DNA of 12,039 nucleotides, from contig JACQVL010000216.1 in NCBI GenBank assembly GCA_016209865.1, forward strand, positions 1 through 12,039. Reading direction: 5' to 3'. A program made the position numbers and the translations under genes. This document shows, one piece after another, positions 2,767 through 12,039 of this stretch. The DNA is from Candidatus Latescibacterota bacterium. Lineage in GTDB: Bacteria; JAAXHH01; JACQVL01. Position 1 is the stretch's first letter; each line of letters opens with the position of its first letter. Under the pieces are notes generated by a model, which saw only the letters and a list, made by a program, of their open reading frames with translations, searched no databases and was not told where the DNA came from.

Positions 2767-2797
2767 ATTTTGGATTTTAGATTTTAGATTTTGGATT
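2767..2797. repeat. Heptamer array, ATTTTGG/ATTTTAG x4 (left arm of inverted pair)
   Basis: Four tandem heptamers (ATTTTGG, ATTTTAG, ATTTTAG, ATTTTGG) plus a trailing ATT make 31 nt, starting 7 nt after the stop of the DnaB-like gene. It is AT-rich in a GC-rich region. It is inverted relative to the array at 2900-2924 (24 of 25 positions complementary), with 102 nt between them, in the gap between two convergent genes. Confidence 0.95.
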
Positions 2798-2899
2798 GGT
2801 GAGTTGCTTGTCTTTGTCGGGTGCCCCCTTACCAAGAAGGAATCCCCGCGGGGTCTCCATGACAGTCCAGCCATCATTCATGCAAAGCATTACCCCCTT

Positions 2900-2924
2900 A
2901 ATCCAAAATCTAAAATCCAAAATC
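2900..2924. repeat. Heptamer array, CCAAAAT/CTAAAAT x3 (right arm of inverted pair)
   Basis: AAT followed by three heptamers (CCAAAAT, CTAAAAT, CCAAAAT) and a C, 25 nt. It is the inverted partner of 2767-2797 and ends 8 nt from the tyrA-pheA stop. Either transcript entering this gap could fold a stem of about 25 bp with a 102-nt loop. A role in bidirectional termination or 3' end protection is inference; there is no terminal T-tract. Confidence 0.93.
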
Positions 2925-2932
2925 GCTCCCCC

Positions 2933-4699
2933 TCATCCCCCCCCATCCACCGTCCGCCCCTCCTCGTACGATCCCAGCAACTTGAAGTACGTGGCGATCT
3001 CCTGCAGGTGGGTGAGCGCCCGGCTGGACGGGAGGCTGTCCGCGCTGCCCCGGAAATCGAGGTAGAACAGGTAATCCCACGGCGTGCCGATCAGCGGGCG
3101 GGATTCGATCTTGCAGATGTCGATGTCCCGGAGCGCGAACACGCTCATCGCCTTGAACAGGCTGCCCGGTACATTCGCAACAGAAAAGACAATCGAGGTC
3201 TTCACGCGCTCCCCTTTGGGAGAGATCGCTTGCGGAGCCAGGACGAGGAACCGGGTGAAGTTCTGCGGACTGTCCTCGATGCTCCGGGCCAGGATGTCGA
3301 GGTCGTAGTGGACGGCCGCCTGGGCGCTGGCGATCGCGGCCACATCGCCAGACCCGCGCTCTTTGAGGAGCTTCGCCGCGCCGGCCGTGTCGTACACCGA
3401 CACCGGCTCCATCCCCGGATGGACGCGGAAGAACTCCCGGCACTGATCCAGCGCCTGAGGGTGCGAGTGCACCTGTCGGATGTCCTCCAGCTTGACTCCT
3501 TTGTTGACGAGCAGGTTGTGGACGATCCTGAGCTTGAGCTCCCCGACGATCGACAGGGTGTGCTGGAGCATCAGGTCGTAATTGCGATGGATACTGCCCG
3601 CTAAGGAATTCTCGATCGGCAGGATGCCGTACTCACTGTGGCCGCGCTCGACCGCGTCGAACACCGCCTCGAACGACGGCTGGGGGACGACTTCCGCCTC
3701 GTCCCCGAAGAACTCTAACGCCGCGATCTCGCTGTTCGCCCCCCGCTCCCCCTGAAAACTCACCGTCTTCGTGCTCACCGTCCGTCCCCTTTCTCCAAAT
3801 ACTGCCGTCCGCACCGTCTTCGCGCGGAGGAGCGCGGATTCCAGCGCCTGTTCATCCCCATCCTGAAGCCACCGCGCTGTCTGATCGAGCTCGGATTGCA
3901 TCCGCTGGATCACGTCGAGGATGGGTTCCCGGTTCGTCAGGCAGATGTCGACCATCACCCGGACGTTGCTCGACGCGACTCGACTCGTATCCCGGAACCC
4001 GCCCGCGGCGAACTCCCAGAGCCGGTGATCCTGATGCGCCGCCGCGTCCGCCGTCCGGACGAGCGCGGAGGAGACGAGGTAGGGCAGATGGCTGGTCACG
4101 GCGACGATCCGGTCGTGCCGGTCCGGGGGCAGGATGACCGGAGTCGCCCCGATCTGCCGGACCAACTGGCTCAGCAGGCGCAGCGCCTCCTCGTCCGGCG
4201 GCACGGTTGGGACGAGGGCGAACGTCGCGCCCGCGAACAGCCGGGCGTCCGCCGCGTCGATCCCCGACCGCTCGCTCCCCGCCATCGGATGGCCGCCGAC
4301 GTACCGCACCTTTTCCGACAACGCGGCAACTGCCCGGCTGACCTCCCCCTTCGTGCTCCCTAAATCAAACAAGATTGCCTGTTCCGGCATGGCGCGCGTC
4401 ACCGCCGCTAAGTCGCGGATGATCGTCCGGACGGGCGTCGCCAGGACGACCAGGTCCGCCTGGCGTACCGTGTCGGCCAGGTCGAGGCTCCCCCGGTCGA
4501 TCGCCCCGCGCTCCGCCGCCCGGTCGATCAACTCCTGGGTCAGATCTACGCCCACCACCTGACGGACCGCCCGCGCCTGCCGGACGGCAAGCCCGAACGA
4601 CCCGCCCAGCAGGCCAAGCCCGATGATGGCAACGCAGGTATCAGAGAGATTAGATTTTGGATTTTGGATTTTGGATTTTGGATTGTTAAACCAGAGCAC
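2933..4699 (-). CDS. Fused prephenate dehydrogenase - prephenate dehydratase (TyrA-PheA)
   Basis: One 588-residue polypeptide holds both exits from prephenate: oxidative decarboxylation to 4-hydroxyphenylpyruvate (Tyr branch) and dehydration to phenylpyruvate (Phe branch). Residues about 21-300 are TyrA: Rossmann GLGLLGG (27-33), acidic D52 at the end of the second strand (suggesting NAD+), HPMAGSERSG with H137, SHLPY with H204, and FRDTSR with R240. Residues about 312-588 are PheA: SFQGERGANSE, PIENSLAGSI, the catalytic TRF motif (482-484) and a C-terminal ACT domain with the ESRP effector motif (532-535), so Phe feedback is expected. There is no chorismate mutase domain; aroH supplies that activity. 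The start is GTG at 4699: an in-frame TAG lies 8 codons upstream, no other ATG, GTG or TTG exists before the Rossmann core, and AAGGAG (4715-4710) sits 10 nt away. The first 17 residues are therefore read through a heptamer array. aroF ends 125 nt upstream. All key residues are present; each half could be active alone. Confidence 0.95.
   Translation of the reverse strand: MLWFNNPKSKIQNPKSNLSDTCVAIIGLGLLGGSFGLAVRQARAVRQVVGVDLTQELIDRAAERGAIDRGSLDLADTVRQADLVVLATPVRTIIRDLAAVTRAMPEQAILFDLGSTKGEVSRAVAALSEKVRYVGGHPMAGSERSGIDAADARLFAGATFALVPTVPPDEEALRLLSQLVRQIGATPVILPPDRHDRIVAVTSHLPYLVSSALVRTADAAAHQDHRLWEFAAGGFRDTSRVASSNVRVMVDICLTNREPILDVIQRMQSELDQTARWLQDGDEQALESALLRAKTVRTAVFGERGRTVSTKTVSFQGERGANSEIAALEFFGDEAEVVPQPSFEAVFDAVERGHSEYGILPIENSLAGSIHRNYDLMLQHTLSIVGELKLRIVHNLLVNKGVKLEDIRQVHSHPQALDQCREFFRVHPGMEPVSVYDTAGAAKLLKERGSGDVAAIASAQAAVHYDLDILARSIEDSPQNFTRFLVLAPQAISPKGERVKTSIVFSVANVPGSLFKAMSVFALRDIDICKIESRPLIGTPWDYLFYLDFRGSADSLPSSRALTHLQEIATYFKLLGSYEEGRTVDGGG
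3776..3796 (-). promoter_or_regulatory. Possible internal Shine-Dalgarno and GTG start for a free PheA
   Basis: On the minus strand, GGAG (3796-3793) and AAGGGG (3791-3786) precede an in-frame GTG codon (3778-3776, residue V308), with 7 nt between AAGGGG and GTG. This is exactly where TyrA homology ends and PheA begins (TVSFQG at 312). It may be the preserved start of an ancestral separate pheA, still able to make free dehydratase. Chance is possible because the linker codes for Gly, Glu and Arg. Confidence 0.4.
4654..4684. repeat. Heptamer array, ATTTTGG x4, inside the tyrA-pheA N-terminus
   Basis: Four perfect ATTTTGG units plus ATT, 31 nt. On the minus strand it is CCAAAAT repeats translated as NPKSKIQNPKS, residues 6-16 of TyrA-PheA. 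The inverted partner is at 4790-4820 (29 of 31 positions complementary), 105 nt away. Confidence 0.97.
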
Positions 4700-4709
4700 A
4701 AAACGAATA

Positions 4710-4715
4710 CTCCTT
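4710..4715 (-). promoter_or_regulatory. Ribosome binding site AAGGAG that decides the tyrA-pheA start
   Basis: AAGGAG on the minus strand, 10 nt before the GTG at 4699-4697. It supports initiation upstream of the heptamer array and so translation of the array itself. Confidence 0.7.
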
Positions 4716-4731
4716 AGCTTGCTCTATCCGA

Positions 4732-4758
4732 ATGGATTCCCGATTGCTTGGGAATGAC
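4732..4758. repeat. dRS3-like palindrome ATGGATTCCC-N8-GGGAATGAC
   Basis: Arms ATTCCC (4736-4741) and GGGAAT (4750-4755) are separated by 8 nt, with flanking ATGG and GAC. This is the layout of the GTCATTCCC...GGGAATCCAT family known as dRS3 in Neisseria and seen in many other bacteria; that this copy belongs to the same family is inference. It sits in the core of the inverted heptamer pair 4654-4684 / 4790-4820, in the aroF to tyrA-pheA leader. Confidence 0.75.
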
Positions 4759-4789
4759 AATGTGGACACGGCGCATAACATGAGTTACT

Positions 4790-4820
4790 AATCCAAAATC
4801 CAAAATCGCAAATCCAAAAT
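4790..4820. repeat. Heptamer array, CCAAAAT x4 with one variant unit, just after aroF
   Basis: AAT followed by CCAAAAT, CCAAAAT, CGCAAAT, CCAAAAT, 31 nt. It ends 4 nt from the aroF stop codon (4827-4825) and is the inverted partner of 4654-4684. Confidence 0.95.
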
Positions 4821-4824
4821 TCAC

Positions 4825-5838
4825 TCACGCCGTCCGTCCGATCGCCTGAGCGACCGCCCGGAGTTGGGGCATCAATTCGGCGAACACCTCCGGCCGGATC
4901 GACTGCTCGCCGTCGGACAGCGCCTTCTCCGGGTTGGGATGGACTTCGATGATCAGCCCGTCCGCCCCGGCCGCGACCGCCGCGCAGGAGACGGCGCTGA
5001 CGTACTCGGCATGGCCGGTCGCCTGACTGGGGTCGATGAAGACGGGAAGATGGCTGTACCGCTTGAGCACCGGGACGGCGGAGATGTCCAGGGTGTTCCG
5101 GGTCCACGTCTCGAACGTCCGGATGCCGCGCTCGCAGAGGATCACCTGATGGTTCCCCCCGGCGAGGACGTACTCCGCCGCTAAGAGCATTTCCTCGATC
5201 GTCGCGGACAGGCCGCGTTTGAGCATCACCGGCCGGTGGCTCTTCCCCACCACCATCAGGAGCGGGTAGTTCTGCATGTTGCGCGCGCCGATCTGCAGGA
5301 TGTCCGCGTACTCGGCCACGACTGGCACCATCTCCGGCGACATCACCTCGGTGATGACGGGCAGACCGGTCTCTTTTTTGACTTCAGCCATGATCTTGAG
5401 ACCTTCGATCCCCAGGCCCTGGAAGCTGTACGGGGAGGTGCGCGGCTTGAACGCGCCCCCCCGGAGGATCTTCGCGCCAGCTTTCTGGACGGCGTGCGCC
5501 GTCTCCATGAGCTGCTTCTTCGACTCGACCGAGCACGGGCCGGCGAACACGACGACCTCATGCCCGCCGATCTCCACCCCATCGACTTGAATGATCGAAT
5601 CGGACGGCTGCACCTCGCGGCTGACCAGCTTGAACGGCCGCTGAATCCGCTGCACCCGGTCGACGCCGGGTATGATCTCTAATTGCTCCGGCTGCAGCCC
5701 GCGGGTGTTGCCGATCAGACAGATGATGGTGACCTCTTCGCCTTGAACATCCCGCGGCGTACAGCCGAGGGCCCGGATCGTCTCACGAACGTGTTCCTTC
5801 TGTGCTTCGGTGGCCTGAGGGTGCATCACGACGACCAT
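4825..5838 (-). CDS. aroF: 3-deoxy-D-arabino-heptulosonate 7-phosphate (DAHP) synthase, type I-beta
   Basis: It condenses phosphoenolpyruvate and erythrose 4-phosphate to DAHP, the committed step of the shikimate pathway. The 337 residues have a ferredoxin-like N-terminal regulatory domain (about 1-70, [11 protein letters not shown] to [10 protein letters not shown]), as in Thermotoga maritima DAHP synthase where it mediates Tyr feedback. A TIM barrel follows with FAGPCSVES (metal-ligand Cys), [17 protein letters not shown] (phosphate and substrate binding), [28 protein letters not shown] (metal His) and [17 protein letters not shown] (metal Glu and Asp). All expected ligands are present. The ATG at 5838 has AAGGAGG (5853-5847) at 8 nt, better placed than the Met five codons in. 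It overlaps the 3' end of aroH by 56 nt, so its RBS lies inside aroH and translation may be coupled. The TGA stop abuts a heptamer array. Feedback specificity cannot be read from sequence. Confidence 0.97.
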
Positions 5839-6208
5839 CGTCCATTCCTCCTTGAGCCAGGTCCGGGCGTAGGCTTGCCGCCTCGCCCAGGTACACGTGC
5901 TGGATCTCGTGCGGTTTCTTATCGGTGTTCACATGGAACATCACGCGAATACAGCGCGGCAGCCCGTCTTGGACTGCCATCTCTTGCATGCAAAACAACG
6001 GAACGGCTGTCCATCCCATCTCCCGCGCGGCGCGGGCCGGGACCTCGGCGTCCAGGTCGGGCGTCGCCGTGAAAAACACGCTGGCCAGGTCGTCCGCGAC
6101 CAGATGATTCCGTTGCATCATCGCCTGCAGCAACCGCTGCGTCGCCTCCCGGATGGTGTCTTTCGTGTTCGCGGGCACGGTCACCGCCCCACGGATGCCA
6201 CGGAGCAT
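5783..6208 (-). CDS. aroH: Chorismate mutase, AroH (Bacillus) type
   Basis: It rearranges chorismate to prephenate, the substrate of both halves of TyrA-PheA. The family is a homotrimer of about 120-130 residues. Landmarks match Bacillus subtilis Aro[12 protein letters not shown] with R6, [22 protein letters not shown] with C73 and catalytic E76, RCIRVM with R88, HVYL with Y106, and LRPDL at 113-117. The start at 6208 is set by GGAGG (6219-6215) 6 nt upstream; the frame continues upstream to 6268, but that part only translates heptamer repeats. The core ends near residue 121; the remaining 20 residues, rich in Gly, Arg and Ser, largely overlap the start of aroF in another frame (56-nt overlap). 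That tail is unlike family members and probably arose by run-on into aroF. The 213-bp gap upstream is filled with repeats. Confidence 0.95.
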
Positions 6209-6225
6209 GAGGCACCTCCGAAGAC

Positions 6226-6253
6226 AAGGACGAAGGACAAAGGACGAAGGACG
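6226..6253. repeat. Heptamer array, AAGGACG x4, upstream of aroH
   Basis: Four tandem units (AAGGACG, AAGGACA, AAGGACG, AAGGACG). It lies 7 nt upstream of the aroH Shine-Dalgarno. The opposite orientation of the same motif (CGTCCTT) recurs at 6361-6423, so this gap also carries an inverted pair around a core of about 107 nt. Confidence 0.93.
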
Positions 6254-6280
6254 AAAAAGAACACTCACATGATACAGGCA

Positions 6281-6350
6281 GTCATTCCCGCGAAACTTGT
6301 CCCCGTGAAACTTGTCCTCGCGAAAGCGAGGAACAGGGAGCGGGAATCCA
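6281..6350. repeat. Composite GTCATTCCC / GGGAATCCA palindrome with inner hairpin and 15-nt direct repeat
   Basis: Outer arms ATTCCCGC (6284-6291) and GCGGGAAT (6340-6347) are perfect inverted repeats with the GTC and CCA flanks of the dRS3-like family. Inside are a 15-nt direct repeat (6290-6304 and 6305-6319, sharing GAAACTTGTCC) and a perfect 7-bp hairpin TCCTCGC-GAAA-GCGAGGA (6315-6332). It looks like several palindromes of one family nested or expanded. It lies between the TIGR00300 gene and aroH, inside the inverted AAGGACG/CGTCCTT pair. On the minus-strand transcript the loop reads UUUC, so no GNRA loop forms there. Confidence 0.8.
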
Positions 6351-6360
6351 TTCTTTTTTT

Positions 6361-6423
6361 CGTCCTTTGTCCCTATCTCTTCGCTCTTGCTCTTTCGTCC
6401 TTCGTCCTTACCACTTCGTCCTT
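6361..6423. repeat. Degenerate heptamer array, CGTCCTT family, about nine units
   Basis: Units CGTCCTT (6361-6367, 6396-6402, 6403-6409, 6417-6423) are interspersed with diverged ones (TGTCCCT, TCTCTTC, GCTCTTG, ACCACTT). It is the opposite orientation of the array at 6226-6253. Its last unit supplies the TAA stop codon of the TIGR00300 gene. It is the longest and most decayed array in the window. Confidence 0.85.
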
Positions 6424-7651
6424 ACGTGACCAGCGCGTTCCGTAATTCTCGCAAGAACGACTCCACATCCGTCACCATGCCGAGCGCCTGATGACTGCCC
6501 CGGTCGGTCAGCTTCGTCACCGTCGCCGGGTTGATGTCGACGCACACCGTCTTCACGTCCGCCGGCAGGAGGTTGCCCGTCGCGATCGAATGGAGCATCG
6601 TGGCGATCATGATCGCCATCCGGACGCCGTCGATATGCGTCCGCATCGTGTCCTGCGCGGCGATCATGTCGGTGATGACCTCCGGGAGCGGGCCGTCGTC
6701 CCGGACCGACCCGGCCAGGACGTACGCGACACCCCGGAAGACGCACTCGTACATCACCCCGCTCGTCACCAGACCGCGTTCGACCGCGTGCTTGATCGAC
6801 CCGCAGCGTCGGATGGTGTTCACCGTCCGCAGGTGATGTTCATGCCCGCCCTCGATGTTGATCCCCTCGCGCAGGGAGACGCCTAAGGAAGTGCCGAACA
6901 TCGCCGTCTCCAGGTCGTGCACCGCTAACGCGTTCCCGGCGAACAGGACGTCGACGTACCCGGCGGCGATGATCTCTGACAGGTACGGCCCCGCGCCCGT
7001 ATGAATGATCGCCGGGCCTGCGACGACGAGCACTTTGCCGCCCTGGCGCTTGATCTCGCGAACCTCCTTCGCGACCCCGTCGATCAGCAGCTTCTTCGGC
7101 TTCTCCGACGAGACAGTGCTGCTCATGAACTCGAACAACTCGCGCTGGCGGGCACGCTCCAGAGGGACGACCCGGAACCCCTGTTTGCCCACCGCGATCA
7201 GGTCGCCCTGCTTCACCCAGTGCATCGGAATGCACCGGGCGGTGTTCGTCGCAGGATCGAGCCGGATGCCGCAGTCCATCTCCGGGTGGTCGACGGGCAG
7301 CCACCGGCCGTCATGCCGGATGAACGTCTGCAGGTTGGTCGTCGCGTAGAACTCTTCGGGGAAGACGCCGTCCATATCGGCGGGCACGAACGCCGCCGGC
7401 GGGTCCTCTAAGACCGCCGCCCCGAACCCACGGAGCTGGTCGAGGATGCCATCAAGCCGGGCCTTGTCGGGCGACTCGATCCTGATCCGGGCGTAGCTCG
7501 GGTCAGCTTTGTGCCGACCGATCGTGAACTCTTCCACCTCAAAGTTACTCTGGCCGTCCGCCATGATCGCTTCGAACACGCGCGGCAGGATGAGGGAGTC
7601 GATGATGTGCCCGCGGAGCTCGATATGGGCGGCGTACGGTTGGTCTGGCAT
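6422..7651 (-). CDS. TIGR00300 / LOR-SDH family protein, ornithine-cyclodeaminase-like
   Basis: The 409-residue protein matches the TIGR00300 family as I recall it. An N-terminal LOR/SDH domain spans about 8-100 (HIELRGHIIDSLILPRVFE). A Rossmann-like part from about 205 has GPAIIHTGAGPYLSEII (212-228), FAGNALAVHDLETA (237-250), GGHEHH (268-273), VDINPATVTKLTDRG (371-385). Related proteins include an archaeal ornithine cyclodeaminase and the C-terminal part of cyanobacterial AgrE/ArgZ; the arginine dihydrolase domain of the latter is absent here. The reaction would be ornithine to proline plus ammonia, but its place between trpA and aroH gives no support for proline metabolism, so function is left open. 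The ATG at 7651 has GGAG (7660-7657) at 5 nt. The stop TAA (6424-6422) falls in the heptamer array. It is probably soluble: no signal or membrane segment is seen. Family call fairly sure, substrate not. Confidence 0.82.
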   Translation of the reverse strand: MPDQPYAAHIELRGHIIDSLILPRVFEAIMADGQSNFEVEEFTIGRHKADPSYARIRIESPDKARLDGILDQLRGFGAAVLEDPPAAFVPADMDGVFPEEFYATTNLQTFIRHDGRWLPVDHPEMDCGIRLDPATNTARCIPMHWVKQGDLIAVGKQGFRVVPLERARQRELFEFMSSTVSSEKPKKLLIDGVAKEVREIKRQGGKVLVVAGPAIIHTGAGPYLSEIIAAGYVDVLFAGNALAVHDLETAMFGTSLGVSLREGINIEGGHEHHLRTVNTIRRCGSIKHAVERGLVTSGVMYECVFRGVAYVLAGSVRDDGPLPEVITDMIAAQDTMRTHIDGVRMAIMIATMLHSIATGNLLPADVKTVCVDINPATVTKLTDRGSHQALGMVTDVESFLRELRNALVT

Positions 7652-7664
7652 GGCAACTCCGTCG

Positions 7665-7695
7665 ATTTTGGATTTTAGATTTTGGATTTTGGATT
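7665..7695. repeat. Heptamer array, ATTTTGG/ATTTTAG x4, upstream of the TIGR00300 gene
   Basis: ATTTTGG, ATTTTAG, ATTTTGG, ATTTTGG plus ATT, 31 nt. It begins 5 nt upstream of the Shine-Dalgarno of the TIGR00300 gene. The inverted partner at 7737-7767 is 41 nt away (28 of 31 positions complementary), the shortest loop among the pairs. Confidence 0.96.
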
Positions 7696-7736
7696 AGAGA
7701 ATGTCATGACTCTCTGCCAGGATGCCCTGTTGTCCC

Positions 7737-7767
7737 AATCCAAAACCCAAAATCCAAAATCTAAAAT
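7737..7767. repeat. Heptamer array, CCAAAAT x4, carrying the trpA stop codon
   Basis: AAT plus CCAAAAC, CCAAAAT, CCAAAAT, CTAAAAT, 31 nt. The CTAAAAT unit supplies the TAG stop of trpA (7763-7761). It is the inverted partner of 7665-7695. Confidence 0.95.
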
Positions 7768-8552
7768 GCTTCTCTGAGCGATCCCACAAACTCCCCAACC
7801 CGCGTGACCAGCCCGTCCGCGTCCGGGCTGCGCTCCATCACGTCGATGATCGCGCTCCCGACGATCACCCCGTCAGCCAGGCGGGCGGCCGCGGCCGCGT
7901 GCTGAGGGGTGGCGATGCCGAACCCGATAGCGAGCGGATGGGTCGTGTGGGCGCGGACCGTCGAGACGAAGTCCTCGACTCCCTCCGCCAGGCGGCTGCG
8001 CGCGCCCGTCACCCCGGTGAGCGAGACGCAGTAGACGAACCCGGTCGTGTGCTGATCGATCAGCCGGATGCGCTCCACCGTGCTCGTCGGGGCGACGAGG
8101 AAGATCGACGCCATCCCCTGCTCGCGGCAGGCGGCGGTGAGGTCCCCTGCCTCTTCGGGCGGGAGGTCGGGGACGATCACCCCATCGACGCCCGCCCGCG
8201 CCGCCTCCCAGCAGAACGCCGGGATGCCATACGCGATGATCGGGTTGTAGTACGTCATCAGGACGATGGGGATACGGGCCTGCTGGCGGATTTCAGCCAC
8301 TGTCTGAACGATCGCCCGGAGGGTCGTCCCGGCCTGCAGCGCCCGCAGGGACGCCCGCTGGATCGTCGGCCCATCCGCCACCGGGTCGGAGAACGGGACG
8401 CCCAATTCGATGATGTCCGCCCCGCGTCCCGCCAGCTCGACGACGAGCCGCTTCGTCATCTCCAGAGTCGGGTCCCCGGCCGTGATGTAGGGAATGAGCG
8501 CTTTCCGGCCGTTCTTCAACGCCTCATCGAACGTCTGCGCGATCCGATTCAT
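7761..8552 (-). CDS. trpA: Tryptophan synthase alpha subunit
   Basis: It cleaves indole-3-glycerol phosphate to indole and glyceraldehyde 3-phosphate in the alpha2-beta2 tryptophan synthase and passes indole to TrpB. The 263 residues are the normal length and form a TIM barrel. Diagnostic motifs are [11 protein letters not shown] near 19-29, [19 protein letters not shown] (the family motif holding both catalytic acids, Glu in ELGVPFSDP and Asp in ADGP), [21 protein letters not shown], the GVTGARS phosphate loop and [10 protein letters not shown]. The ATG at 8552 begins [13 protein letters not shown]; the RBS is modest (AAAGGG about 12 nt upstream). It follows trpB after 60 nt, the usual trpB-trpA order. 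The TAG stop is contributed by a heptamer repeat unit, so the last residue or two may have been altered by the insertion. Confidence 0.98.
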
Positions 8553-8612
8553 GATGGGTTATCCCTTTTCCCACTTTTCACTGGACCTTGACAATAAGAC
8601 GAGCATCACCGA

Positions 8613-9842
8613 TTACTGTTTTTCCTGACCCCTGATCCCTGACCCCTGACCCCTTTTTTCCAGGTACTTCGCCACCGACTGCACGTCCTTATCCCCACGG
8701 CCGGACAGGCCGATGATGATGACCTGATCCTTCCGCATCACCGGGGCGAGCTTCATCGCGTGAGCGACCGCATGGGCGCTCTCTAAGGCGGGAATGATCC
8801 CCTCTGTCCTGGAGAGCAACTGGAGCGCGTCCAATGCTTCGTCGTCGGTCGCGCTCGTGTACTCCGCCCGGCCGGTCTCTTTCAGGTAACTGTGCTCCGG
8901 GCCGACCCCCGGGTAGTCCAGACCGGCGGAGATCGAATGGGCGACCTGTACCTGGCCGTGTTCGTCCTGCAACAGATAGCTCATCGACCCGTGCAGCACC
9001 CCCGGCGCGCCTTTTCCGAGCGTCGCCGCGTGCTGGCTGTGCAACCCGAACCCCGCGCCCTCCACCCCGATCATCCGCACACTCGCATCCTCCAGGAACG
9101 AATGAAATAGGCCGATCGCATTGCTCCCGCCCCCGACGCAGGCGATCAGCGCCTCCGGCAGCCGGCCTTCCTTCTCCAGAATCTGTGCCCGCGCCTCCCG
9201 GCCGATGATCGACTGGAAATCCCGGACGAGCATCGGGAACGGATGCGGGCCGGCGACCGAGCCGATGATGTAGTGGGTGTGCCGGACGTTCGTCGCCCAG
9301 TCCCGGAGCGCCTCGTTGAGCGCGTCCTTGAGCGTCCGGCTGCCCGACTCGACACCGATCACCCGCGCGCCCATCAGCCGCATCCGGAAGACGTTGAGCG
9401 CCTGCCGCTCCATGTCCTCCGTCCCCATGTACACGTCGCACTCGAAGCCGAACAGCGCGGCCACCGTCGCCGTCGCCACTCCGTGCTGTCCCGCCCCGGT
9501 CTCCGCGATCACCCGCGGCTTGCCCATCCGCTTCGTCAGGAGAATCTGGCCGATGGTATTGTTGATCTTGTGCGCCCCGGTATGGTTGAGGTCTTCACGT
9601 TTAAGGTAGATTCTCGCGCCGCCCAGCGTGTCAGTCAGCCGCGCCGCATGGTACAACGGGGTCGGCCGGCCGACGTACTCCGTGAGATAGTACCGCAGTT
9701 CCTCCTGAAACGCCGGGTCGCGCTGTGCTCGCTCGTACTCGGCCGTCAATTCCTCAAGGGCGGACATCAGCGTTTCCGGGACGTACCGGCCGCCGAAGAT
9801 GCCGAAATGCCCGGCCGCATCGGGCAAGGTGACGCTGGACAC
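8613..9842 (-). CDS. trpB: Tryptophan synthase beta subunit
   Basis: This PLP enzyme joins indole and serine to give tryptophan. The 409 residues have [13 protein letters not shown] near the start, GRPTPLYHA, the PLP lysine in HTGAHKINN (K92), ETGAGQHG with E114, [17 protein letters not shown], the phosphate-binding GGGSNAIG loop, GVEGAG and [15 protein letters not shown]. It is TrpB1-type by length and motifs. The start is GTG at 9842 with AAGGAG (9855-9850) 7 nt upstream; that RBS overlaps the aroQ stop, implying coupled translation with aroQ. The last 12 or so residues (GQGSGIRGQ then EKQ) are translation of a TGACCCC heptamer array and not native family sequence; the native end is near KYLEKR. 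The catalytic core is intact, so the enzyme should be active. Confidence 0.98.
8624..8654. repeat. Heptamer array, GACCCCT x4, encoding the TrpB tail
   Basis: CCT plus GACCCCT, GATCCCT, GACCCCT, GACCCCT, 31 nt, followed by T6. Read on the minus strand inside trpB it gives GQGSGIRGQ. It has the same length and unit number as the ATTTTGG arrays but an unrelated motif. No inverted partner was found in the trpB-trpA gap. Confidence 0.95.
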
Positions 9843-9849
9843 AGGCTGA

Positions 9850-9855
9850 CTCCTT
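9850..9855 (-). promoter_or_regulatory. trpB ribosome binding site overlapping the aroQ stop
   Basis: AAGGAG on the minus strand begins within the aroQ TAA (9856-9854) and sits 7 nt ahead of the trpB GTG (9842). It supports the GTG start and suggests ribosomes finishing aroQ help start trpB. A strong hairpin (9867-9884) lies just upstream. Confidence 0.8.
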
Positions 9856-10330
9856 ACGGGGTGTCGTTCCCGCGCACGCGGGAATCCATTTTTTTGAGAT
9901 GATCGATCAACGCCCTCAGTCCCAACAGGTAGCTGTCCGCCCCGAACCCGCAGATTTGGCCGACCGCGACGGGCGCGACGAACGACCGGTGCCGGAATTC
10001 CTCACGGGCATGGATGTTCGACAAGTGGACCTCGACCGCCGGCAGGCCGACGGCGGCGATCGCGTCCCGGATGGCGAGGCTCGTGTGCGTGTACGCCGCC
10101 GGGTTGATCAAGATGCCGTTCGCCCACTCCCGCGCCCGCTGAACCTCATCGACCAACTCGCCCTCGTGGTTCGACTGGACGCATCGCACCTCAACCCCTT
10201 CAGCCGCGGCCAGCGCGCCAAGCCGCTGGTTGATCTCATCGAGAGTCACGTGACCGTACACGCCCGGTTCACGTAGTCCCAACAGGTTGAGGTTCGGCCC
10301 GTGCAGGACGAGGATTCTTATCGTATCCAT
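9854..10330 (-). CDS. aroQ: 3-dehydroquinate dehydratase, type II
   Basis: It dehydrates 3-dehydroquinate to 3-dehydroshikimate, the third shikimate-pathway step, as a dodecamer. The 158 residues contain [20 protein letters not shown] (catalytic Tyr on the lid loop), [45 protein letters not shown] (catalytic His) and [15 protein letters not shown]. The ATG at 10330 has AAAGGA (10342-10337) 6 nt upstream; the frame is open for 20 more codons to 10390, but those codons only read an octamer repeat. The native protein should end near DHLKK at residue 147, matching family length. The final [11 protein letters not shown] (11 residues) is the translation of an inserted GTCATTCCC-family palindrome, a known signature peptide of that element. 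It lies 64 nt after aroKB and 11 nt before trpB, so it is very likely in one transcript with trpB. Confidence 0.97.
9863..9889. repeat. GTCGTTCCCGCG / CGCGGGAATCCAT palindrome inside the 3' end of aroQ
   Basis: Arms TTCCCGC (9867-9873) and GCGGGAA (9878-9884) form a 7-bp GC-rich hairpin with a 4-nt loop, extendable to 8 bp with a 2-nt loop. Flanks GTC and TCCAT match the dRS3-like family. It is translated on the minus strand as [10 protein letters not shown]7 follows on the plus strand (9889-9895), so it would look like a terminator only for plus-strand transcription. Confidence 0.85.
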
Positions 10331-10356
10331 AGGCAGTCCTTTTCTTTCGTTTTTTC

Positions 10357-10388
10357 CCCTCTGCTCCTCTGCCCCACTGCCCCTCTGC
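10357..10388. repeat. Octamer array, CCCTCTGC x4, in the aroKB-aroQ gap
   Basis: CCCTCTGC, TCCTCTGC, CCCACTGC, CCCTCTGC, 32 nt, ending 7 nt from the aroKB stop. This is the only array with an 8-nt unit, but it again has exactly four units. No inverted partner is visible. Confidence 0.93.
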
Positions 10389-10394
10389 ACTCGT

Positions 10395-11984
10395 TCATCT
10401 CACCCGTAAACTATCCCGAATCATCTCCCCCGTCACCCCGTCCACGACCTCGACCGCGCCGATCCGCGTCGGCAGGACAAACCGGAGCCGGCCGCCGACC
10501 GTCTTCTTGTCGTGCGTCATCGTCCGGAGCATCCCATCGATATCGAGGGCGAGCGGCGCGATGGGCAGTCCTGCCCGCTCGATCAGCCGGGCGATCCGGT
10601 CGACAGACTCGCCATCCAGGAGATTCATCAGCTCCGCGATCCGCGCCGCGCAGACCATCCCGATCGCCACCGCCTCGCCGTGCAGGAGGCCGGTGTAGCT
10701 GAGCTGCGCCTCGATCGCATGACCGATCGTGTGGCCGTAATTCAGGATTACCCGGCGGCCCTGCTCCCGCTCGTCCCCGGACACCACCTCCGCCTTGATC
10801 TCACACGACCGGGCGACCAGGTGCGCCAGCGCGTCCCCAGACCGGGCGAGGACGGTATCGAGATGCTGTTCGAGGTATTCGAACAACTCCGCGTCCGCGA
10901 TCACCCCGTGCTTGATGACCTCCGCTAACCCGGCCCGCAGTTCCCGGTCGGGCAGGCTCTGCAGCGTGTCAAGGCTGATCAGCACCAGCCTGGGCTGGTG
11001 GAACGCGCCGATCAGGTTCTTCCCGCGCGGATGATCGACCGCCACCTTGCCGCCCACGCTCGCGTCCACCTGCGCCAGCAGAGAGGTCGGGACCTGGACG
11101 AACGGTACCCCGCGCATGTAGGTGGCCGCCGCGAAGCCCGTCAGGTCGCCGATCACCCCGCCGCCTACGGCGATGACCGGCGACCGCCGGTCCATCCGAT
11201 GATCGAGCATCGCGTCGTACAACCGGCTCGCCCAGTCGAGCGACTTGTGCGCTTCCCCGTCCGGTACCTCGGCGACCGCCGGCTCGAACCCGGCGCTCCG
11301 CAGCGCCCGCTCGACTGTGTCCCCGTAGCACCGCCCGATGCCGGGGTTCGTCACGATCAGCGCCCGGCTCGTCAGATCGAACGCCCGGAGGAGCAGGCCG
11401 AGGTGGGAGAGCACGGACACGCCGATGACGATGTCGTAGCTGTCCGGCCCCAGGTCAACCCGAACCCGCCGGATGGTCGTCCCGTTCACCGACTCCAGCA
11501 CCCGCCGGGCGACGGCGTACGCATCCAGGTTCGAGGTGTCGATCGTGTCATCCGCCTGCGCGTAAAACGGCGCGCGAAAGGCCAGCAACTCCTTGATCCG
11601 CTCGAGCGCATCCGTCCCGGCTAACATCGGGCGCTCGCTCGCGTCCCCGCCCGTCCGGGCGAGGATGACCTCCGGGGCGGCCGTGAGATGGACGACCGGA
11701 CCGAGCAACTTCAGGATGCGCACGTTCTCCGCGTCCAGGACGACGCCCCCGCCCGTCGCGATGACGTGGTCGGTCGCCCCGGCCAACCCCCGGACGATCT
11801 CCTTCTCGATCGCCCGGAAGCCCGGTTCCCCCCGTGTGCGGAAGATCTCAGGAATCGACAGACCCGTCTGCATCTCGATCATCGCGTCCGTATCGACGAA
11901 CGCCAGGCCGAGCGCCGCCGCCAACGTCTTCCCGACCGCCGTCTTCCCCGTCCCCATGAACCCGACCAGGACGATGTTCCCCAC
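10395..11984 (-). CDS. aroKB: Bifunctional shikimate kinase - 3-dehydroquinate synthase
   Basis: The N-terminal domain phosphorylates shikimate with ATP (fifth pathway step) and the C-terminal domain cyclises DAHP to 3-dehydroquinate (second step). Of 529 residues, about 1-168 are AroK: Walker A GFMGTGKT (8-15), DTD (31-33), substrate-binding GGG (78-80), lid ERPML (R118) and R137. About 172-529 are Aro[29 protein letters not shown] (NAD binding), [23 protein letters not shown], and the zinc ligands in [10 protein letters not shown] (Glu), [11 protein letters not shown] (His) and [11 protein letters not shown] (His). All catalytic features are present. The start is GTG at 11984 with a GAGGG-type RBS about 4 nt upstream. 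AroK-AroB fusions are known from Thermotoga and, as I recall, some Chloroflexota. The stop lies 7 nt from an octamer array. What lies upstream is outside the window. Confidence 0.96.
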
Positions 11985-12016
11985 GTGTCCCTCACCTTAC
12001 CGCTTTCTTTGTTTTT

Positions 12017-12039
12017 ACTGATCACTGACCACTGACCAC
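12017..12039. repeat. Heptamer array, ACTGACC, truncated by the window edge
   Basis: ACTGATC, ACTGACC, ACTGACC and the start of a fourth unit, running off the window, about 32 nt upstream of the aroKB GTG. It is another motif variant (TGACCAC) of the heptamer system. Confidence 0.9.

Follow-up and report, generated by a model that had tools for sequence, protein, structure and literature searches.

Tandem-heptamer arrays as probable terminal inverted repeats of small intergenic elements in a Latescibacterota genome

To our knowledge, heptamer arrays have been reported from scattered bacteria for decades with no accepted origin. In Geobacter metallireducens, tandem repeats of 7 or 8 nt form several families with three to five units per site (four octamers in class 1, five heptamers in class 3, four heptamers in H4), and members of classes 1 and 2 occur as opposite-strand pairs at variable distance (PMC2700814). 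The heptamers GGGAATC of Xanthomonas and GGGGA(C/T)T of Nostoc are intergenic, lie near genes of all functional classes, prefer four units and have no assigned function, and the Xanthomonas repeat forms about 70 convergent inverted pairs per genome (PMC4692102). Here, we analyze a 12,039-nt stretch of DNA from Candidatus Latescibacterota bacterium (contig JACQVL010000216.1, hereafter the window), a single contig of a 3.75 Mb assembly (GCA_016209865.1; 356 contigs, 83% complete), in which short arrays of tandem heptamers or octamers recur. We find that these arrays are arms of inverted pairs, and consider it probable (at roughly 0.6) that they represent the terminal inverted repeats of short dispersed elements that code for nothing, are about 80-180 nt long, resemble miniature inverted-repeat transposable elements (MITEs) and were inserted whole into short intergenic gaps.

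The arrays share with the paired G. metallireducens sites their three to five tandem 7- to 8-mers, opposite-strand pairing and variable distance. That likeness is one of description, the printed consensus motifs of G. metallireducens being different ones, and those sites also differ in being read as IHF/HU or global-regulator sites, with class 1 tied to ISGme8/9 and H4 also intragenic; the part of PMC2700814 on which we draw reports no insertion test. With the Xanthomonas and Nostoc repeats they share heptamers, a preference for four units, an intergenic position near genes and (Xanthomonas) convergent inverted pairs, but those repeats comprise one motif per genome studied, are interpreted as G-quadruplexes and reach up to 26 units (PMC4692102). 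In marine Beggiatoaceae, TAACTGA repeats likewise form heptamer arrays between genes, with two to six units and a position close to gene starts, but they are direct, with only one inverted case, and have one motif (PMC4679880). The heptanucleotide repeats of the cyanobacterial short tandemly repeated repetitive (STRR) type and of the tRNA-Leu intron P6b stem resemble the present ones in that degenerate heptamers flank a hairpin, but they vary freely in copy number, lie inside an intron and belong to another host group (PMC3488679; see also Mazel 1990 and Costa 2002). MITEs are short and non-coding, with terminal inverted repeats and dispersed copies in unrelated flanks; the elements here differ in their tandem-heptamer ends, mostly unrelated spacers, and the lack of any target-site duplication or parent transposon found. 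Finally, the repetitive extragenic palindromic (REP) doublets known as REPINs, mobilized by REP-associated tyrosine transposases (RAYTs), also form inverted pairs of about 30-nt repeats in intergenic gaps, in several families per genome, but the arms here contain no short palindrome, and a Y1 transposase was rejected as mobilizer, since PF01797 had no match in the organism's own assembly (the E. coli control matches). The Geobacter and Xanthomonas reports show that four-unit preference and pairing were already known for single cases; the present analysis adds how many families a single genome carries, the motif match between the arms of a gap, the rule of position at gene edges, and the evidence for insertion and dispersal as a unit.

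We scanned 641 kb of the source genome, comprising the window, 294 kb in 40 contig stretches picked independently of repeats and 335 kb in 20 stretches selected for the presence of ATTTTGG. Every array listed in a preliminary description of the window was recovered in place by Tandem Repeats Finder (3.6 to 4.6 copies), together with one more at 12017-12039, which is truncated by the contig end. In the unselected 294 kb, 47 arrays had period 7, two had period 8 and none had periods 5, 6 or 9-11, and shuffled sequence gave no period-7 arrays; the arrays are not products of chance. More than ten motif families of tandem arrays occur across the 641 kb, in which counts per family are biased because the first 20 stretches were sampled for ATTTTGG. 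The class-1 motif of the cyanobacterial repeats, TDNGATT, fits TTGGATT and TTAGATT here.

The pairing of the arrays is the central point, and the preliminary description lacked it. Among neighboring arrays no more than 300 nt apart, 61 pairs were inverted with the G-rich arm on the left and none had the opposite order, and the two arms enclosed a spacer of 1-138 nt (nearly all 21-138 nt), that is, terminal inverted repeats around a short non-coding spacer, as in MITEs. Four such pairs flank intergenic gaps of the window (2767/2900, 4653/4790, 6226/6361-6423 and 7664/7737). Same-orientation neighbors (13 with both arms G-rich, 8 with both C-rich) were in most cases stacked arms separated by only 1-10 nt, an AGTGACG-type arm often having a CGGTGG-type arm on its outer side. 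The motif superfamily was identical for both arms of a gap in 50 of the 61 pairs (13.4 expected; reached in 0 of 2000 shuffles), whereas arms on either side of a gene matched as often as chance predicts (7 of 27 vs. 5.9 expected). Measured to gene edges from a simple gene caller, the outer end of an arm lay at a median of 11 nt and the inner end at 96 nt, starts and stops alike, and the 138 gaps shorter than 30 nt held almost no arms.

We compared gaps with those of three sister lineages (G001, G011 and G013) that share the order of the source genome but fall in different genera, and in which gene order is kept. Where these lineages have no array, their gaps are in several cases shorter by nearly the length of the entire arm-spacer-arm unit. 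An element of 128 nt corresponded to gap differences of 142, 139 and 134 nt, the three sister gaps being 27-38 nt long and free of arrays, and further elements were compared in the same way (140 nt vs. 142, 125 and 70; 131 vs. 138; 147 vs. 154 and 68; 123 vs. 106). For element 4 of the window (104 nt) the differences were 99, 38 and 26 nt; the gap measures 112-121 nt here and 19 nt in G001 (a difference of 99 nt), and the adjoining ornithine cyclodeaminase is 73-75% identical to the sister versions. Over ten gaps, the closest sister value matched the true element better than permuted elements (P=0.01). The earlier proposal that a preformed unit is inserted is thus supported as to insertion, but the unit is the whole arm-spacer-arm (about 80-180 nt) and not a single 31-nt array, as the gap differences and the dispersed copies correspond to the whole pair. 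The other process proposed, a protein or RNA structure that measures about 31 nt, is a further possibility.

Dispersed copies tell of the same unit. A whole-genome search with one element as query returned four copies, two of which (C219 and C189) are 107 nt long, 92% identical over precisely the span between the outer ends of their arms, and set in flanks that are unrelated; two copies of a second subfamily were also found (C113 and C6). The AGTGACG element (180 nt) has two copies in opposite orientation (L045 and L073) that are coterminous with the arms, a less strong case because its spacer contains another dispersed repeat. A dispersed palindromic repeat (GTCATTCTGAGCGAAGCGAAGAATC) is nested in AGTGACG elements at L045 7796-7855, L073 3326-3385 and L044 4141-4203. 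A further similar pair (L035) is accounted for by duplicated flanking genes. Homology bounded by the terminal repeats, with flanks that are unrelated, as in MITEs, was found for a minority of elements only. Taken together, inverted pairing, the motif match within gaps, abutment on gene edges, shorter sister gaps and coterminous copies with unrelated flanks point to terminal inverted repeats of small insertions.

Several observations weigh against this reading. Target-site duplications did not exceed chance, either in 30 ATTTTGG pairs (k=2-9) or in 68 pairs of all families. No autonomous element was found in the 17% of an 83% complete genome that was covered; three long brackets of inward-facing, same-family arms contained PhyH, M48-peptidase and trmB genes and no transposases, and with host genes as contents they were rejected as autonomous elements. 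Many arms have no partner, and spacers are mostly unique, so that outside the REP-like palindrome described below only a few of 58 resemble another, unlike typical MITE families. Two sister gaps misfit (element of 184 nt, differences of 70 and -11 nt; element of 81 nt, 32 and 9 nt), two are longer in G011 (>700 nt) than here, and sister genes are only about 65-75% identical, for which reason the junctions are not base-precise.

Gene-edge position also bears on the possibility that the arrays are sites for nucleoid-associated or global regulatory proteins, placed at gene edges by selection and looped in pairs by protein, as in the IHF/HU reading of the G. metallireducens sites. Arms do hug gene edges, at starts and stops, they are constrained where spacers are not, and a protein site is the published proposal for paired four-unit octamers (PMC2700814). 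However, more than ten unrelated motifs per genome would demand equally many proteins, dispersal involves whole elements with the spacer included, orthologous gaps of sister lineages lack arrays, and the adjoining genes are ordinary housekeeping genes, and we regard this explanation as unlikely. A second alternative, in which the arms pair in the transcript as a long hairpin that protects, punctuates or terminates intergenic mRNA, is quite improbable. Three whole elements did fold far better than shuffled sequence (z of -7.7, -6.7 and -7.8), and two stretches cut inside an arm folded less well, but inverted repeats of any origin would fold. Arm identity within pairs was not above that between pairs (23.96 vs. 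24.34 for AAAATCC, and slightly below for ATTTTGG), hence compensating changes do not preserve the pairing; the unpaired arms count against a hairpin function as well, and the elements matched no Rfam family.

The size of the arrays was the starting point of the preliminary description, which held that unrelated motifs share exactly four units. Among 261 arrays in the 641 kb, 17 had two units, 82 three, 127 four, 28 five and 7 more (four vs. three, P=0.001). A size peak near 31 nt and a sharp upper limit thus stand, but four units account for only 49% of arrays, and four is no rule across motifs, ACCACCG arrays more often having three. In the unselected 294 kb the corresponding counts were 30 arrays of three, 38 of four and 10 of five units, and the four-unit peak there is suggestive only (four vs. 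three, P=0.2). The broad, smoothly falling distribution that would have refuted the preliminary interpretation was not seen; the distribution peaks at four and drops steeply above five. Heptamers measured 31 nt (4.4 units) and octamers 33 nt (4.1 units) here, as against 29 nt (4.1 units) and 30 nt (3.75 units) in G013, where octamer arrays are similar in both length and count, which leaves length and count inseparable as the conserved quantity. Perfect four-unit arrays were scarce (4-6 of about 200). Variant units made up 28-40% of outermost, 57-70% of the two middle and 43-48% of innermost units in arrays anchored at one end only; a strict rule that the variant unit is always in the middle, seen in length-selected arrays, became only a tendency under this anchoring.

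These counts bear on slippage of ordinary microsatellites with a 7-nt preference, for which it speaks that heptamers are over-represented in bacterial simple repeats and that earlier work has proposed slippage at a polymerase-sized unit (PMC4692102, PMC4679880). The four-unit peak with few longer arrays, the rarity of perfect arrays, the strictly inverted orientation with motif match within gaps, and the coterminous dispersed copies all disfavor slippage, which we consider very unlikely; scattered variant units, commoner in the two middle ones, would moreover make the arrays poor slippage substrates. An insertion origin appears to account for the fixed array size better. G-quadruplex formation, with four units because four G-tracts are needed, has been published for the repeats GGGAATC of Xanthomonas and GGGGATT of Nostoc (PMC4692102) and might yet apply to the families CGGGG and CAGGGG, but it is refuted as a general explanation and exceedingly improbable here, since only 57 of 131 four-unit arrays have at least four GG runs, 24 have at least four GGG runs and 20 have no GG, and AGTGACG, among the commonest motifs, lacks GG.

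If the arrays are the ends of insertions, an enzyme acting in trans may recognize the roughly 31-nt repeated end and move or copy the element; the motif families would have different or drifted recognition, and intergenic gaps would be the sites where insertions survive. We propose that a constant unit count results from the inheritance of each end as a whole and from selection for its recognition. That most spacers are unrelated would mean either that the elements are old, with only the ends conserved, or that ends are able to acquire new spacers. A bolder extension, which we hold only tentatively and find doubtful, is that of a widespread, unrecognized class of bacterial insertions in which every end is built of roughly four tandem 7- or 8-mers, spanning about 31 bp or near three helical turns, with a freely changing motif, whose mover, an enzyme or a replication process, reads periodicity and not sequence and leaves no target duplication, and which would include the Xanthomonas, Geobacter, cyanobacterial and present repeats as members.

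The window holds four elements and three lone arms in total (Table 1), with ordinary genes as neighbors: ClpB, a DnaB-like protein, TyrA-PheA, AroF, AroH, TIGR00300 ornithine cyclodeaminase, TrpA, TrpB, AroQ and AroKB. The GACCCCT array encodes the C-terminal tail of TrpB (GQGSGIRGQ), and thus displaced the trpB stop codon.

Table 1. Elements and lone arms of the window, with copy numbers from Tandem Repeats Finder in arm order.
Feature	Coordinates	Strand	Structure	Copies	Location
Element 1	2767-2924		ATTTTGG arm 2767-2797, spacer 102 nt, inverted CCAAAAT arm 2900-2924 (3 units)	4.4; 3.6	gap from DnaB-like gene stop (2760) to pheA-tyrA stop (2933)
Element 2	4653-4820		perfect 4-unit ATTTTGG arm 4653-4684, spacer 105 nt with REP-like palindrome at about 4732-4758, inverted arm 4790-4820 with variant unit	4.6; 4.4	gap between tyrA start and aroF stop (4825)
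Element 3	6226-6423		AAGGACG arm 6226-6255, spacer with REP-like palindrome 6281-6353, decayed inverted arm 6361-6423 (intact part 6394-6409)	4.3	gap between aroH start and TIGR00300 gene stop (6422)
Element 4	7664-7767		ATTTTGG arm 7664-7695, 41-nt spacer, inverted arm 7737-7767	4.6; 4.4	gap between TIGR00300 gene start (7651) and trpA stop (7761)
Lone arm	8624-8654	-	GACCCCT family	4.4	
Lone octamer arm	10356-10388	-	CCCTCTGC	4.1	between aroQ start and aroB stop
Heptamer arm	12017-12039	-	ACTGACC, truncated by contig end		upstream of aroKB

The REP-like palindrome (TGTCATTCCCGCGCAAGCGGGAATCCAT) is separately dispersed. It is present in about a quarter of spacers and lies inside or beside elements of the window, with a third site at 9861-9890 in addition to those in Table 1. 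Inside the palindrome of element 3 is a tandem 15-mer (CCCGCGAAACTTGTC, 2.6 copies, 6287-6325), with a related copy at L077 2795-2837. Elsewhere in the source genome, an octamer family built on ACGTT forms inverted pairs of 30-39 nt per arm (L073 7-90 and 4240-4351, L062 52-135, L035 4503-4604), and L075 carries stacked arms at 2623-2675 and 3816-3877, CGGTGG outer and AGTGACG inner, mirrored around trmB and a small open reading frame.

Some orthologous gaps hold other arrays in the sisters; the aroF-tyrA gap of G013, the site of element 2 here, has TTCCGAG/CTCGGAA. G013 has inverted same-motif pairs of both heptamers and octamers (9 inverted, 0 direct), and its motifs differ. We counted 108 occurrences of the sequence ATTTTGGATTTTGG here, 33 in G011, one in G013 and none in 13 other genomes of the phylum set, and period-7 arrays are also present in some 20-kb samples from distant genomes. 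A hairpin (GGTGGGAGTC...GACTCCCACC) before aroH is common to the sister lineages (L105 11755-11945, L106 15040-15290, L094 1070-1330), has no Rfam match and is possibly an unnamed leader RNA; it is absent from the window, with the AAGGACG element in its place.

Reading the arrays as paired ends recasts the question of why there are four units as one about a recognition site, testable by strain comparison. It also explains repeat-encoded tails of ordinary proteins, such as that of TrpB here.

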